Positions 52,547-60,341 of a DNA stretch of 64,000 bases are shown one piece after another. Source of the stretch: Lunatibacter salilacus (GTDB lineage Bacteria; Bacteroidota; Bacteroidia; Cytophagales; Cyclobacteriaceae); the NCBI RefSeq assembly GCF_009797935.1, contig NZ_VOLC01000001.1:310001-374000 (forward strand), written 5' to 3'. Made by a program: the position numbers and the translations under genes. Each line of letters begins with the position of its first letter. The first letter of the stretch is position 1. The notes beneath the pieces were generated by a model. That model was not told the origin of the DNA and did not search any database. It was given only the letters and a program-made list of their open reading frames with translations.

Positions 52547-55500
52547 TTATTTAATATGCAAATCCGAAGTTTTACCAAATTTACCTCTCTTTTTCCTGAC
52601 TAGATAGACTACTATTCCGGACAGTGTCAACAGAATAAAAACCCAAGCCATCCAAAATTTATTTGGACCCAATCCTTCTATAGGTTCTGGATCTCCTATC
52701 AATACCAACCCTGCCCAATATTGCGGGGAGAGCGTGCGTCCATTTGCATCAGAAAGGTATTTCAGCTTTGCCTGCTTCAGTGCCTTGTCTTTGGCCATTC
52801 CTTCTGACAAAAATGCCAAAAAGTGTTCTGTGATCTCCATACTGGATTTTTCATCGATCCGCCAAAGAGAGGTCAACAGGCTTTCCGAACCTGAATATTG
52901 GAAAGCATGCGCAAGAGAAATCATGCCTTCACCAGGCTTATATATCGGTTTTCCGGTTTCGCAGGCAGTCAATACCGTCAAATGAGCCTTCATTTCTGTA
53001 TTGTAAATTTCATAGGCGTATACTGAGTTGTCCTCCTCTGGCTTATCGGATTTGGCAAAGATAAGCCTGGAAAAAGCCGGGCTGATATTGTTGGATTCGG
53101 CATGGGTTGCGATGTGGATGATTTTATTGTTGCCGGCATACTTCCTGAATACTTCGGGAGTGGATTGCTCATACACATAACTTTTACCGCTGAAAAGTTC
53201 GGAGGCACGTTTTGCCAAATGTATGGAGAAAGGTTGGGGCAAAAGTGAAAGATAGGCCTTGTCCAAGCTTAGCGAGTCTTTGGCTGAATTCAGGTAATTG
53301 TCCTTCATCGAGTCCATAAACCCAGGGGCAAAGGCAATATAATTGGTAGGTATAGGACTATGCCTTTCCCCATTCAGCAGCCGAAGGCTGTAGTGGTAAG
53401 AAATATCATGCCTTCCCAATAACCCAATTGAGCTATACTCGCTATAATCCACCAAGTCACTTTCAGTCAAAACGTCGAAATTGAGATTAAAAAGAACCCG
53501 GGAAGGAATAACCAAAACCCTATCTTTATCAAATTCTAAAGCAAATGGCTCCCAAAGCTGCTGATAAAGTGCGTGTGTGATTTTTCCCAGGTCTCGAGGA
53601 TTGTCCCAGTTGCCATGCAAAGCAGGAATGAGTTCCGGATCAAAATCAAGGTGGAACAGCTTTTTTTTACCGTTGGAAAAAACAACGGCTTTTAATTTCT
53701 CCTCCACAAAAAAATACCTTACAATCTGTGCGTCAAATGGAATTTCCATGTTTTCAGGGCTGATTTCGGCATAGCGCATGTGATAGTAATCTGGAAATTC
53801 AAGTCTCAACTTTTCCAAAAAACTCTCCCATTCACTGCTTAATCTATGATACTCACTCAAATCACCTCCTCCATCAAATAGCTCGTTCAATTCCTTTTTG
53901 AGTAGAGACTCCTGATCTTGCAGGTTTTTGGGAACACCTGCAAAGCGAATGTCTGTGTGTTGATTTAGCTGCGTTCTGATGCGACTATATACACTAGCTT
54001 CCTGAACCGCTATTAAATCATCCAAATATTTTTTGTCTCCCGTCTTCTCATATAGCTCTAACTGGATTTTCTTTATAAAGTCCATCAAATCTTCGTTTTG
54101 GGCTACCAGTACAGTGAGGTCTTCGCTCTCTGACAAATAGCTTTTTCTCTTTTCCAGTATCTCCATTGCATCTAAAAGCCTTTTAAGGATATGCTCCAAA
54201 TTGGCAATAGATTTTGCCGGGTTTAATTCGTATTGGGATTTTTCCGAAAGTAGAATAGATTGTGGTTTGTCGTAATTTATTCGAATGGAATCAATGCCTG
54301 ATTCAGCCTGATTCAATCTTTCATCCAGAATAGTAAGGCTTTCATTGGCATGGATTAATGCGTTTTGAAACTCTCCCAAATTATAATAAACCCGCCCCTG
54401 ATTAAGTACCTGTAAAAACCCTGACATTGAGCTGCGGCCGTTTACCTTGGAAATATAATCCAAACCCAGCTTGGACCAGTTAAGCGCATATTGAGGTTCA
54501 TTGTTTTTGGAAAAAAACTCAGCGGCATTGCCTAAAAAATCTAGGTAAACAAAATCAAACTTTTCCCGGTAAGCTTTTTCAAAGTGGTCTTTGGCCATCA
54601 GATAATGGTGTTTCGCAAGGGAAATATTCTTTTCACTTTCGTGAATCAAAGCCAGGGTATAATGAACATCGGCAAACTGCATATAATAGTCTCCATCAGC
54701 CTTCTCCAATTCCTTTAGGGCTTTGGCAAGGAAGACTTTGGCTTCCCCGTAATTGCTGACAAATCGGTGCGTTTGTCCCACATGAATCAAACTTTCCGTG
54801 ATTTCAGGATGTCCTGGGGGAAAAAATTTTTCCTTAGCTTTCAGGGTATGTTCCTGGAGCCTTAATGCCTCCTGATAATTACCAATGCTCTTATAAACCA
54901 AAGCAAGATTCATTGAGCCATGAAAAAGCGATAAAAATGCCCTTTCTCTTTTTGGATCATCCAATGCATTGTCAATGAAATATTGCGTATTGGCAATGGA
55001 AGATTTGACTCTCCGAATACTTTCCCGCACCTCACCTTTGACATCGTACACCGCTCCAAGGTTGCCTTCAATCATGGCCCTGCGATAATATTGGTTGGTC
55101 GGGGTCGGTTCCATTTTATCTAAATATTCGATTCCCTCCTGCCAATAATATTCTGCCGAATCCCACATAGCTGAAAACCAATACCGTGCTCCAAGGTCAT
55201 TGAGTAAATTAAAATAATTTACGGGACTTGTCTTAGGATCCTGTTCGTAGCCTTCCTTTGCTTTGAGGGTATGTGATCTGGCCTTTTCCGGATTTCCCAT
55301 CTGATTGGATATAACTCCCAAATTGCTTTCGATCACGGCCCATTCCGCAGGCCTGTGGTCTGGAATCTGATTGGTATAGGCCAATGCCGTTTCATTGGCT
55401 TCATAGGCCATCGCCGGCTTTCCTGCTTTGATATAGTATGTGTGAATTTCCAGATAAGCCTGTCTTAATTCCCTTGGGTCCGAACTTTCCTTTTTGATGA

Positions 55501-55774
55501 AATCAAGCCAATAATGTACTGCATCCATTCCGCTTTGGCTCCCCATTTCGGCATCGGCAATATAGCCGGCAAAGGGGATAAAATAGCTTAGGTTCAAAAA
55601 ATCCCTGTTGGATATATAAGGCTCGGTTTCTCTATCAAAAATGCTTTTTGCCAATACAGGATCTTCATCACTGAGTGCTTTCTGTATTGATGAAAGTTGG
55701 GCATCCACATCTTGGGCCACACCACAGATTGGGTATATTGAGATAAATAGCCATATAAAGCAAAGGCGGTTCAT
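52547..55774 (-). CDS. Secreted TPR-CHAT (caspase-like) protease with C-terminal membrane anchor
   Basis: 1075 aa. A signal peptide (LCFIWLFISIYPICGVAQ) ends at about residue 21. Residues about 25-500 are tetratricopeptide-like helical repeats (for example YQEALRLQEHTLKAKEKFFP), followed by a charged helical region to about 650. The CHAT domain (about 690-1030) has the His in IHIATHAES (H891) and the Cys in VLTACETGKP (C938), the expected catalytic dyad, plus the downstream SLWRIDEKSS. One membrane segment (WMAWVFILLTLSGIVVYLV, about 1041-1059) leaves a basic cytoplasmic tail. Third gene of the sigma/anti-sigma/CHAT operon, with an ATGA overlap to the preceding gene. Confidence 0.9.
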   Translation of the reverse strand: MNRLCFIWLFISIYPICGVAQDVDAQLSSIQKALSDEDPVLAKSIFDRETEPYISNRDFLNLSYFIPFAGYIADAEMGSQSGMDAVHYWLDFIKKESSDPRELRQAYLEIHTYYIKAGKPAMAYEANETALAYTNQIPDHRPAEWAVIESNLGVISNQMGNPEKARSHTLKAKEGYEQDPKTSPVNYFNLLNDLGARYWFSAMWDSAEYYWQEGIEYLDKMEPTPTNQYYRRAMIEGNLGAVYDVKGEVRESIRRVKSSIANTQYFIDNALDDPKRERAFLSLFHGSMNLALVYKSIGNYQEALRLQEHTLKAKEKFFPPGHPEITESLIHVGQTHRFVSNYGEAKVFLAKALKELEKADGDYYMQFADVHYTLALIHESEKNISLAKHHYLMAKDHFEKAYREKFDFVYLDFLGNAAEFFSKNNEPQYALNWSKLGLDYISKVNGRSSMSGFLQVLNQGRVYYNLGEFQNALIHANESLTILDERLNQAESGIDSIRINYDKPQSILLSEKSQYELNPAKSIANLEHILKRLLDAMEILEKRKSYLSESEDLTVLVAQNEDLMDFIKKIQLELYEKTGDKKYLDDLIAVQEASVYSRIRTQLNQHTDIRFAGVPKNLQDQESLLKKELNELFDGGGDLSEYHRLSSEWESFLEKLRLEFPDYYHMRYAEISPENMEIPFDAQIVRYFFVEEKLKAVVFSNGKKKLFHLDFDPELIPALHGNWDNPRDLGKITHALYQQLWEPFALEFDKDRVLVIPSRVLFNLNFDVLTESDLVDYSEYSSIGLLGRHDISYHYSLRLLNGERHSPIPTNYIAFAPGFMDSMKDNYLNSAKDSLSLDKAYLSLLPQPFSIHLAKRASELFSGKSYVYEQSTPEVFRKYAGNNKIIHIATHAESNNISPAFSRLIFAKSDKPEEDNSVYAYEIYNTEMKAHLTVLTACETGKPIYKPGEGMISLAHAFQYSGSESLLTSLWRIDEKSSMEITEHFLAFLSEGMAKDKALKQAKLKYLSDANGRTLSPQYWAGLVLIGDPEPIEGLGPNKFWMAWVFILLTLSGIVVYLVRKKRGKFGKTSDLHIK

Positions 55775-56499
55775 TTTTCAGGGAGACTCTTGAGAAGCTT
55801 TTCGGCATCGGGATGACTGGATTTTTCAAGCATTATTCTTGCCTGTTCCAAATCCCTTTTCAACAAATAGATTAAACCCAAATACCAGGTAGCTTCATCT
55901 GTAAATTTACTGGTTTCCACTTCCAATACCCGCTCAAAATAAAATAGAGCCTTATCGCTATTTTTCAAATCCAAGTGAGCTGCTCCAAGAAAATACTGAA
56001 GGGTATCGTTTTCGGGCTTTTCTTGAATGATTTTTTCCCATCGTACTATTGCCGCTTCGTAGTCTCCCAGTTTATAATCCACCATTCCCCGGTCAAATTC
56101 GTATTCCATACTGCTTCCCATTGCGGTGACAAGGCCAGGGTCGGGTTGGTAGTGGGTCAAAAACAACTGCTCTTCTTCATTGGGACCGATTAAAAACACC
56201 CAGGTAAAAAGTCCCAACAACAGAATAAAGGAGGCAGCGACACCAAGCCAAGGAAACCTTTTGGATTTAATGGTTTCGTTATCACTTAATTCATGGTGAA
56301 AACTTTCCAAATTTTCCCTCAGAGCGTTTTCTTCGATACCTTCCAAAATAGCTTTGGCAGACTGGAATTTAGCGGAAAATGCTTTATTTGTCTCCAGTTC
56401 CTTTTCGAAATCGAACCTGTCATCAACAGGCATTTCGTTGAGAAAATAGCTTTCGAACCGTTCAAATTCTTCCTGCGATATATTGGTTTGGTTACTCAC
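55771..56499 (-). CDS. Membrane-spanning TPR protein in anti-sigma position
   Basis: 242 aa starting with GTG at 56499, one nt after the sigma-factor stop; the frame extends upstream, but only inside the sigma gene. The N-terminal about 80 residues are a cytoplasmic helical domain (EEFERFESYFLNEMPVDDR) like Bacteroidota anti-sigma factors. A single membrane helix follows at 82-104 (WLGVAASFILLLGLFTWVFL). The C-terminal about 135 residues hold TPR-like repeats (YKLGDYEAAIVRWEKIIQ, YFLGAAHLDLKNSDKALFYF) that should face the periplasm. No zinc-binding HXXXCXXC motif. The anti-sigma role is inferred from position and topology. Confidence 0.8.
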   Translation of the reverse strand: MSNQTNISQEEFERFESYFLNEMPVDDRFDFEKELETNKAFSAKFQSAKAILEGIEENALRENLESFHHELSDNETIKSKRFPWLGVAASFILLLGLFTWVFLIGPNEEEQLFLTHYQPDPGLVTAMGSSMEYEFDRGMVDYKLGDYEAAIVRWEKIIQEKPENDTLQYFLGAAHLDLKNSDKALFYFERVLEVETSKFTDEATWYLGLIYLLKRDLEQARIMLEKSSHPDAEKLLKSLPEK

Positions 56500-56500
56500 C

Positions 56501-57070
56501 TTAAATGCTGTGTTTAGTTTTGGTATCCAAATTTTCTCTAAGCCGCTGAATACATCGGTATTTGTTATTCCGGGCAGTTGCCTCTGTCCAGTCAAAAGCC
56601 TGGGCTATTTTTGCCATGGACTGCTTTTCGAAGTAAAACCGTGTAAGCAGCTCCTTGCAATTCCCTCCAAGTTTCTTAAATGAAGCCTCTATATGTTTAA
56701 ATTTAAACTCCCTGTCTTCATTCTCCTCTTCTTTTACTTCGTGATAAGTTTCAAGGGGAACAGTATTTTTATGTTTTGTGGAATTAAGTTTATCCAGCCA
56801 TTTGTTTTTGGCTATTTGATAGAGAAATCCGGTGACTGCCGTTCCGTTTTGTGGAATAAAATCTTCTGATTTAAGTTTTTTCCAAACGGCTACAAACGCC
56901 TCTTGAAAGATATCCTTTGCTTGGTCCGAGTCTCCCCGGTTTGCAGTTACATATTGTTCCACCTTTGGATACTGGGATTTATAAAGCCACCTAAGCACCT
57001 CGGAATCGTTTTCCCTGACCCCCGCAATTATCTCCGCCTGACTGTACTTCTTAAAAATATATTCCCGCAT
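56501..57070 (-). CDS. ECF-type RNA polymerase sigma factor
   Basis: 189 aa. Region 2 (about 25-95) includes DQAKDIFQEAFVAVWKKL, the core-binding part, and FLYQIAKNKWLDKLN of the -10 recognition part. Region 4 (about 125-180) includes KELLTRFYFEKQSMAKIA and the helix-turn-helix TEATARNNKYRCIQRLRE. It lacks regions 1 and 3, so it is an ECF (group 4) sigma. It leads a tight operon with an anti-sigma-like TPR protein and a TPR-CHAT protease. Its target promoters cannot be seen. Confidence 0.93.
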   Translation of the reverse strand: MREYIFKKYSQAEIIAGVRENDSEVLRWLYKSQYPKVEQYVTANRGDSDQAKDIFQEAFVAVWKKLKSEDFIPQNGTAVTGFLYQIAKNKWLDKLNSTKHKNTVPLETYHEVKEEENEDREFKFKHIEASFKKLGGNCKELLTRFYFEKQSMAKIAQAFDWTEATARNNKYRCIQRLRENLDTKTKHSI

Positions 57071-57156
57071 ATCTCCCGATTAATGCAGAAATATACAATT
57101 AAATGCTGTTTGTCCCAACCTTTTATTTAAAATTAGTCGGTTTTTTTCTTTGAAGC

Positions 57157-59933: not shown

Positions 59934-60341
59934 ATGATTTATAAATTTATTGTTTTTTTCTTTTTCGGCTACTTTTTTCATTTTTATTCATTCGGACAAA
60001 CAGATCTGGACAGTCTAAAGCATGCCATCGATCTGCTGGAAAATGATTCTGTCAAAATAAAAACATTGATCCAACTATCCCGGCAAATTCATCGGGAAAA
60101 TGCTAACGATGAAGATGATTTTTTGTATGCACAAAGAGCTGCCGACCTGGCTGAATCCTATGGGGATATCCTGCTTTGGGCCGAAAGCTTGGACAATTTG
60201 GGTCTGCTGCACCGATATCATTCCCGATACGCACAGGCCATTCCTCTTCACCAACATGCGTTGGACCTGATAAACGAGAAAAAAGTTGCGCCCTATTACA
60301 AAATGCGGTTTGCCAATAACCTTGCTGTAGCCGCAAGGTAG
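59934..60341 (+). pseudogene. Truncated N-terminal fragment of a secreted TPR protein
   Basis: 135 codons: signal peptide (FIVFFFFGYFFHFYSFGQ) followed by two to three TPR units (SLDNLGLLHRYHSRYAQAIPLHQHALDL). Full-length relatives, such as TPR sensor kinases or cyclases of Cytophagales, continue for several hundred residues with more TPRs and an output domain. Here a TAG at 60339-60341 follows NNLAVAAR, where relatives usually read R-Y, and the sequence after it does not resume TPR coding. A remnant is likelier than a short functional protein. Confidence 0.65.

Follow-up and report, generated by a model that had tools for sequence, protein, structure and literature searches.

In the DegS–RseA–RpoE system, as in other cases of regulated proteolysis, the initial cleavage of a membrane anti-sigma factor occurs outside the cytoplasm; the protease, DegS, is a serine protease with a PDZ domain. 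The eukaryotic protease separase cuts cohesin. Two bacterial systems come closer to the locus described here. In the first, type III-E CRISPR (clustered regularly interspaced short palindromic repeats), one report (PMC10028731) describes how the tetratricopeptide repeat (TPR)-CHAT protein Csx29 cuts Csx30, the inhibitor of an extracytoplasmic function (ECF)-like sigma factor. According to the same source, the cut falls in a small flexible loop (residues 427-429) and is prevented by deletion of M427, while a change in the TPR part of Csx29 reorders its catalytic residues. In the second, from Myxococcus xanthus, two reports present DdvS as an ECF sigma factor that is active once DdvA is inactivated (PMC4374960) and that controls an antiphage island (PMC12288465). 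The titles of Protein Data Bank (PDB) entries 8rot and 8rw5 call DdvA a transmembrane anti-sigma factor, and the molecule is named CHAT domain-containing protein. Here, we analyzed a stretch of 64,000 nucleotides from Lunatibacter salilacus (contig NZ_VOLC01000001.1, positions 310,001 to 374,000; hereafter, the window) that carries, as three tightly linked genes, an ECF sigma factor, a membrane anti-sigma-like protein, and a TPR-CHAT protein. We consider it probable on balance that the TPR-CHAT protein is a caspase-like site-1 protease that releases the sigma factor, so that the three genes form one switch leading from the envelope to transcription.

The three genes run on the minus strand from 57070 to 52547 in the order sigma factor, anti-sigma factor, and TPR-CHAT protein, and all features below lie on that strand unless stated otherwise. 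The sigma factor (56501..57070, 189 amino acids) matched Pfam Sigma70_r2 (E 4.3e-10; 39.7 bits, cut-off 24) and the NCBIfam sigma70-ECF model TIGR02937 (63.1 bits, cut-off 42.9), with region 4 detected below its cut-off (17.8 of 24.1 bits). A single nucleotide (56500) separates its stop codon from the GTG start of the anti-sigma-like gene (55771..56499, 242 amino acids). The list of open reading frames (ORFs) also holds a longer version of this gene, with a TTG start and 274 amino acids; its relatives align to the GTG start. The ATG of the TPR-CHAT gene (52547..55774, 1075 amino acids) overlaps the TGA of the anti-sigma gene as ATGA. Both the coordinates and the domain matches agree with the layout given in an earlier note on this DNA, and the domains that it had named (sigma factor, single-pass TPR protein, and a protein with signal peptide, TPRs, CHAT domain, and C-terminal helix) were all recovered.

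To collect related loci, we scanned bacterial and archaeal contigs with an alignment headed by the CHAT of the window; of the 453 encoded relatives obtained, the best were retained, giving 78 loci. Because these loci were picked by similarity, they show conservation of the subfamily of the window CHAT and not of CHATs generally. Sigma factor, anti-sigma factor, and CHAT stood in line in 69 of the 78, strictly adjacent in 66 and with one ORF between anti-sigma factor and CHAT in 3. Elsewhere, the full set belonged to a second CHAT copy (L188), the pair lay near the CHAT in another orientation (L232 and L235), the locus was at a contig edge (L182 and L202), or no full pair was called (L210, L214, L221, and L231, of which L214 does have an anti-sigma factor). 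Relatives of the CHAT gene are thus usually found beside a sigma/anti-sigma pair, and a conserved order, for which the earlier note had proposed a search across Bacteroidota, was found. By record title, the loci come from Cyclobacterium, Mongoliibacter, Algoriphagus, Aquiflexum, Indibacter, Winogradskyella, Gelidibacter, Allomuricauda, Maribacter, Arenibacter, Aequorivita, Foetidibacter, and several metagenome-assembled genomes, one of them titled Chlorobiota; we take the named genera to belong to the Cyclobacteriaceae, Flavobacteriaceae, and Chitinophagaceae. Within the family, matches to the anti-sigma factor at E 1e-5 were present in 70 of 98 genomes, the weak ones including generic TPR proteins, and its profile at E 1e-15 matched 21 of 198 genomes in a sample of the phylum. 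In some loci with all three genes (L163, L174, L188, L191, and L195), a second CHAT copy adjoined the set or lay close to it.

An independent census covered the 59 CHAT matches in 13 related genomes made up of few contigs, each taken with its surroundings; L156, which is a fragment interrupted by a stop, was dropped, leaving 58. A sigma/anti-sigma pair was found within three genes of 24 of these CHATs and within two genes of 23. In the genome of L. salilacus itself, each of the five TPR-CHATs of ordinary size lay no more than 4.9 kb from a sigma gene, as measured from the CHAT domain, and had a pair beside it or one gene away; a sixth, weak CHAT match falls in a frame of ~2,150 amino acids without a pair. 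If CHAT and pair adjoined for historical reasons only, one could point to the 34 of 58 census CHATs that are unlinked and to the number of sigma factors, with 40 region-2 matches in this genome. Against such a coincidence stand the in-line order of the related loci and the chance estimates, which use the sigma density of the L. salilacus genome and are therefore rough: p 7e-7 for five out of five and p 5e-15 for the census, or 1e-8 at double background. We rejected coincidental neighborhood on these linkage counts and regard it as very improbable. A control with genes far from the CHAT in the census loci, 34 of 169 of which were near a pair, was discarded as uninformative, because the pair itself sits in those loci. 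The census also contained a distinct size class of CHATs of ~1350-1440 amino acids (L099, L102, L111, L123, L125, L129, and L141) that lack a C-terminal anchor and for which no adjoining sigma/anti-sigma pair was called; a neighbor of ~700 amino acids accompanies several of them. One genome of the family (G022) had 21 CHAT matches, and nine listed matches were spread over ~55 kb of a single contig (C190, 2049-56400).

The orientation of the genes was variable. Among 52 distinct linked CHATs, 30 were convergent with the pair, 18 were in line, of which 11 make up the window's own group, and 4 were divergent, and the window CHAT was at most 22% identical to the linked CHATs outside its group. The genes are thus close though often not co-transcribed, which argues for function and not for operon inertia. 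The same counts bear on the alternative that the CHAT acts downstream, as an effector within the regulon: a periplasmic protease induced by the sigma factor would attack envelope or foreign targets, and the anti-sigma factor would answer another signal through another protease. As the last gene of the sigma operon, the window CHAT could be merely co-induced, and a family of ~850-amino acid lipoproteins also adjoins the operon in 29 of the 78 loci. However, the convergent and divergent CHATs, 34 of the 52, lie outside the sigma transcript and yet within three genes of the pair, a membrane anchor is found on all 52, and Csx29, the closest structural relative, cuts a sigma inhibitor. We therefore consider a role as mere effector improbable. 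In the census, the anchor went together with linkage: the linked CHATs were 24 anchored and 0 unanchored and the unlinked ones 10 anchored and 24 unanchored (Fisher p 1.1e-8, with the caveat that loci from one genome are not fully independent).

Furthermore, the three proteins covaried. Trees were compared for 51 of the 52 sets, one CHAT under 850 amino acids being omitted. The mirror-tree correlations were 0.67 for anti-sigma/CHAT, 0.66 for anti-sigma/sigma, and 0.62 for sigma/CHAT; in the 40 sets outside the close group they were 0.47, 0.59, and 0.43, in the same order (0 of 2000 permutations in both cases), and shared species history adds to all of these values. Between paralogues within one genome (28 pairs, from 24 loci with the genome recorded), the anti-sigma/CHAT correlation was 0.39.

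The TPR-CHAT protein has the features of a peptidase. Its CHAT domain (residues 733-1028; 52691..53578; Pfam CHAT 124 bits, cut-off 24) follows a helical TPR superhelix (about residues 30-670; 53765..55687) that was seen both as Pfam TPRs and as helices in the AlphaFold2 model, which has a predicted local distance difference test score (pLDDT) of 87.5 and a predicted template modeling score of 0.80. The domain carries a His-Cys dyad, His891 (53102-53104) and Cys938 (52961-52963), which the earlier note had described as intact; none of the 70 aligned window-type sequences, the window's own among them, lacks either residue. The equivalent His and Cys were retained in all 52 linked CHATs despite ~20% identity between groups, which argues that catalysis matters. 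Gaps at these positions in unlinked CHATs (2 for His and 10 for Cys among 34) coincided with truncated profile matches and were left uninterpreted.

The conservation of the dyad also speaks against a second alternative, in which the CHAT protein would regulate the anti-sigma factor without cutting it: TPR-TPR binding would hold the complex or release it on a signal, and the peptidase would be used elsewhere or for self-processing. TPRs are indeed present in both proteins, and DdvA, with anti-sigma factor and CHAT in one chain, is compatible with a structural role. Given the retained dyad, we regard regulation by binding as unlikely.

The earlier note had proposed that the CHAT domain faces the periplasm. 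In Bacteroidetes, most Sec-exported proteins are marked by a Gln immediately behind the leader (PMC10653852). The putative signal peptide of the TPR-CHAT protein (residues 1-20; 55715..55774) is followed by Gln21, and 64 of the 70 sequences aligned have Gln there. At the other end, the model places a membrane anchor helix (residues 1040-1065; 52580..52657) with basic residues at its end. By simple hydropathy rules, a C-terminal anchor was detected in 78 of the 78 related loci and a signal peptide in 68, the start being truncated or miscalled in some of the other 10; the C-terminal hydrophobic segment of the 52 linked CHATs exceeded 1.7 on the Kyte-Doolittle scale in 50 and reached 1.6 in two. 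Because of the signal peptide with its Gln and the anchor, both the CHAT and the TPR parts of the protein are very probably periplasmic, in agreement with the proposed location.

The CHAT model resembled both described systems. In a Foldseek search, the top PDB match was Csx29 (8eey_B, E 6.5e-14). With VIA-align 2, Csx29 chains scored Z up to 26.8 (8eey_B: Z 25.7, 619 residues, root-mean-square deviation 7.7), while DdvA (8rot_A) scored Z 20.5 over 596 residues, with residues 165-1027 of the model on DdvA 294-991. The catalytic half superposed on that of separase (5fby: Z 25.2, root-mean-square deviation 2.9 over 296 residues). Since scores of pure TPR proteins were equal or even higher (8jal_B, Z 30.3), the informative matches are those to the catalytic half. 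At the sequence level, a CHAT profile detected DdvA at E 6.8e-9, with its His and Cys aligned, and Csx29 at E 1.4e-6 to 2.6e-6.

As in the type III-E CASP/Craspase system (Csx29–Csx30–CASP-sigma), the set comprises a TPR-CHAT protein, a partner that would inhibit the sigma factor, and an ECF-like sigma factor. In contrast to Csx29, which is activated by Cas7-11 and target RNA, the CHAT protein described here is predicted to be exported and membrane-anchored, and unlike Csx30, the candidate inhibitor is a TPR membrane protein. The NCBIfam Csx29 model gave the window CHAT 21.5 bits against a cut-off of 300, so that the two are related in fold and not members of one family. No match to RAMPs (PF03787) was found in the L. 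salilacus genome, while 4 of 14 control genomes had one, and no CRISPR-like repeat array was found within the window; therefore, this is not a type III system. With DdvS–DdvA the locus shares the ECF sigma factor, a transmembrane anti-sigma factor, here a candidate one, and the CHAT with aligned His and Cys; what DdvA combines in one chain is divided here between two separate, overlapping genes. The earlier note knew of no described system with this arrangement. Part of that statement falls away, since the logic is known from Csx29–Csx30–sigma and the anti-sigma factor DdvA contains a CHAT; of the three-protein envelope version itself, no description was listed in our searches, which were limited to open-access literature and did not cover subscription papers.

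An antiphage role, suggested by Csx29 and DdvS, was considered and rejected. PADLOC was applied to 44 of the 53 ORFs listed for the window, the scan covering these ORFs and not the flanking genes of relatives, and no complete system was apparent among the matches listed (25 of 36 families). Judged by their names, the listed families appear to represent a single SNF2-type helicase (DpdE, ZorD, DrmD, and the like) and a single IscS/DndA-like protein, each of which matches one member. Unlike for DdvS and its antiphage island, no clear defense system was thus recognized in the window.

The AlphaFold2 model of the anti-sigma-like protein (pLDDT 89.5) has N-terminal helices followed by a transmembrane helix and then by TPRs, for which Pfam matches were also obtained. 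Its N-terminal domain precedes the transmembrane segment and its gene adjoins that of the sigma factor, as in membrane anti-sigma factors. Of 72 aligned members, 42 matched the NCBIfam anti-sigma model NF052375 at E 0.01 or better, with a best value of 3.6e-8. The transmembrane helix (residues 83-104; 56188..56253) has Lys and Arg residues on its N-terminal side and the TPRs beyond it, and its Ala89 was present in 51 of 51 aligned sequences. A hydrophobic segment was found in each of 52 linked anti-sigma factors (best window mean 1.4 to 2.9). The basic residues that flank this segment mostly precede it, which should place the N-terminal domain in the cytoplasm and the TPRs in the periplasm. 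Judged from these topology signals, the protease and the TPR half of the anti-sigma factor should both be exposed on the periplasmic face of one membrane.

The most conserved part of the anti-sigma factor lies just outside the membrane. In 72 window-type sequences, the loop between the membrane-proximal helix and the first TPR (residues 117-129, YQPDPGLVTAMGS; 56113..56151) averaged 3.41 bits, compared to 2.11 for the N-terminal domain, 2.07 for the transmembrane helix, and 2.47 for the TPRs, and D120, G122, and M127 were invariant (72/72). In 40 distant CHAT-linked anti-sigma factors, one column of the same loop held Arg in 38, followed by Gly or Ser in 32; this Arg was the best conserved charged position of that group, the runner-up being found in 30 of 40. 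Some sequences of the two forms are nearly alike: the window type has PTTMG/S, to be compared with PTVRGS (L059) and PTMRSN (L143) outside it. Met127-Gly128 is a candidate site for recognition or cleavage by the CHAT, and it recalls Csx30, which is cut beside a Met within a flexible loop. The same conservation could reflect a binding surface, as expected if the CHAT regulated the anti-sigma factor by binding.

The exchange of Arg for Met in the window-type loop was accompanied by two changes in the CHAT, Glu to Leu at column 853 and Asp to Glu at column 975. We treat this as a lead only. The window-type group of 79 contains the window twice and some loci from two collections, and the Arg group omits L040 and includes L231 and L232. 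By analogy with separase, column 975 may contribute to the S1 pocket.

Taken as a working model, these features suggest the following route. The N-terminal domain of the anti-sigma factor would hold the sigma factor at the membrane, and the TPR superhelix of the CHAT protein would serve as a sensor arm for an envelope signal or a partner. Sensing would activate the separase-like catalytic half allosterically, as in Csx29. The earlier note had the CHAT cut or hold the TPR half of the anti-sigma factor to free the sigma factor; we infer the same, with the loop before the TPRs as a specific candidate site. Cleavage would occur in this exposed loop, after or near Met127 here and at Arg in other subfamilies. 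With the TPR part lost, an intramembrane (site-2) protease and cytoplasmic proteases would clear the remainder and free the sigma factor. Matches to M50, a site-2 protease family, were present in the L. salilacus genome and likewise in 14 of 14 control genomes. As in DegS–RseA–RpoE, a membrane anti-sigma factor would receive its first cut outside the cytoplasm, and the CHAT protein would be the caspase-like counterpart of DegS acting on RseA; unlike DegS, it is a predicted cysteine protease on a TPR superhelix.

Several observations weigh against release of the sigma factor by CHAT cleavage. The N-terminal domain of the window anti-sigma factor matched NF052375 weakly (E 0.021; 14.8 bits, cut-off 100), and a fold search with its model was filled by TPR proteins and is uninformative on that domain. 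In the loop, an Arg followed by a small residue was found in 50 of 53 anti-sigma factors that have a CHAT no more than four genes away, although a later Arg inflates this count for the window type. It was also found in 14 of 17 sigma-linked anti-sigma factors for which no CHAT was seen at that distance; one of these (L069), however, is linked in a longer stretch (L138), and several stretches stop at contig ends. Thus, the motif fails to separate CHAT-linked from other anti-sigma factors; where no CHAT is nearby, one encoded elsewhere may act, or the motif may serve another purpose. Csx29, read in the alignment with Glu at column 853 and Ser at column 975, breaks a simple S1 rule, and therefore the specificity argument for the Arg-to-Met switch is not clean. 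Ten census CHATs are anchored without a pair nearby, one of which (L155) has Thr in place of Cys, and a crude test of the Gln rule was satisfied by 35 of 51 linked and 28 of 32 unlinked CHATs. Finally, the nearest neighbors in the trees agreed in only 23 of the 51 sets.

Upstream of the operon, a putative promoter, TTGGGA-N17-TATATTTCTG (57086..57118), is common to several related loci. The pattern TTGGG-N16..22-TGTATATTTCTG occurred once in the 6.79-Mb genome, at the operon itself, and the pattern search therefore yielded no regulon. A lipoprotein of the beta-lactamase/serine hydrolase class (PF00144; 57157-58332) lies directly upstream of the sigma gene, and in L042 and L233 a similar-looking lipoprotein of 390-400 amino acids precedes the sigma gene. 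On the plus strand, an ORF of 135 amino acids (59934-60341) with a signal-peptide-like start and a TPR resembles the front of a longer TPR protein. The ~850-amino acid lipoproteins (for example, L158:11238-13799 and L204:3300-5861, which share 27% identity) sometimes occur in tandem copies; they lie downstream of the operon in Mongoliibacter/Aquiflexum-type loci and upstream in Allomuricauda-type loci. Four of five members scanned had no Pfam match, and the fifth had sub-threshold matches only. The family is absent from the window locus, and a distant relative is encoded elsewhere in the genome (25% identity, E 3.5e-53). These lipoproteins may be the source of the signal or a target.

Beyond this locus, a broader proposal is plausible, though we hold it tentatively: Bacteroidota would possess a widespread, CRISPR-free caspase-like site-1 system, in which a periplasmic TPR-CHAT protein anchored in the inner membrane cuts a TPR anti-sigma factor at Met/Arg-Gly/Ser just outside the membrane, and the fused DdvA and the RNA-guided Csx29–Csx30 would be variants of an older CHAT/anti-sigma/sigma module. 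The prediction is precise, naming one loop, one residue in it, and two catalytic residues, and it can be tested in cultivable relatives. If it is true, caspase-like proteolysis would be added to the mechanisms known to switch ECF sigma factors, and a function would be found for a large class of exported caspase relatives in bacteria; many of these lay beside sigma/anti-sigma pairs in this analysis. It would also suggest an origin for the sigma-releasing output of the CRISPR-guided protease Craspase, which would have arisen by the attachment of an RNA sensor to a pre-existing signaling protease.

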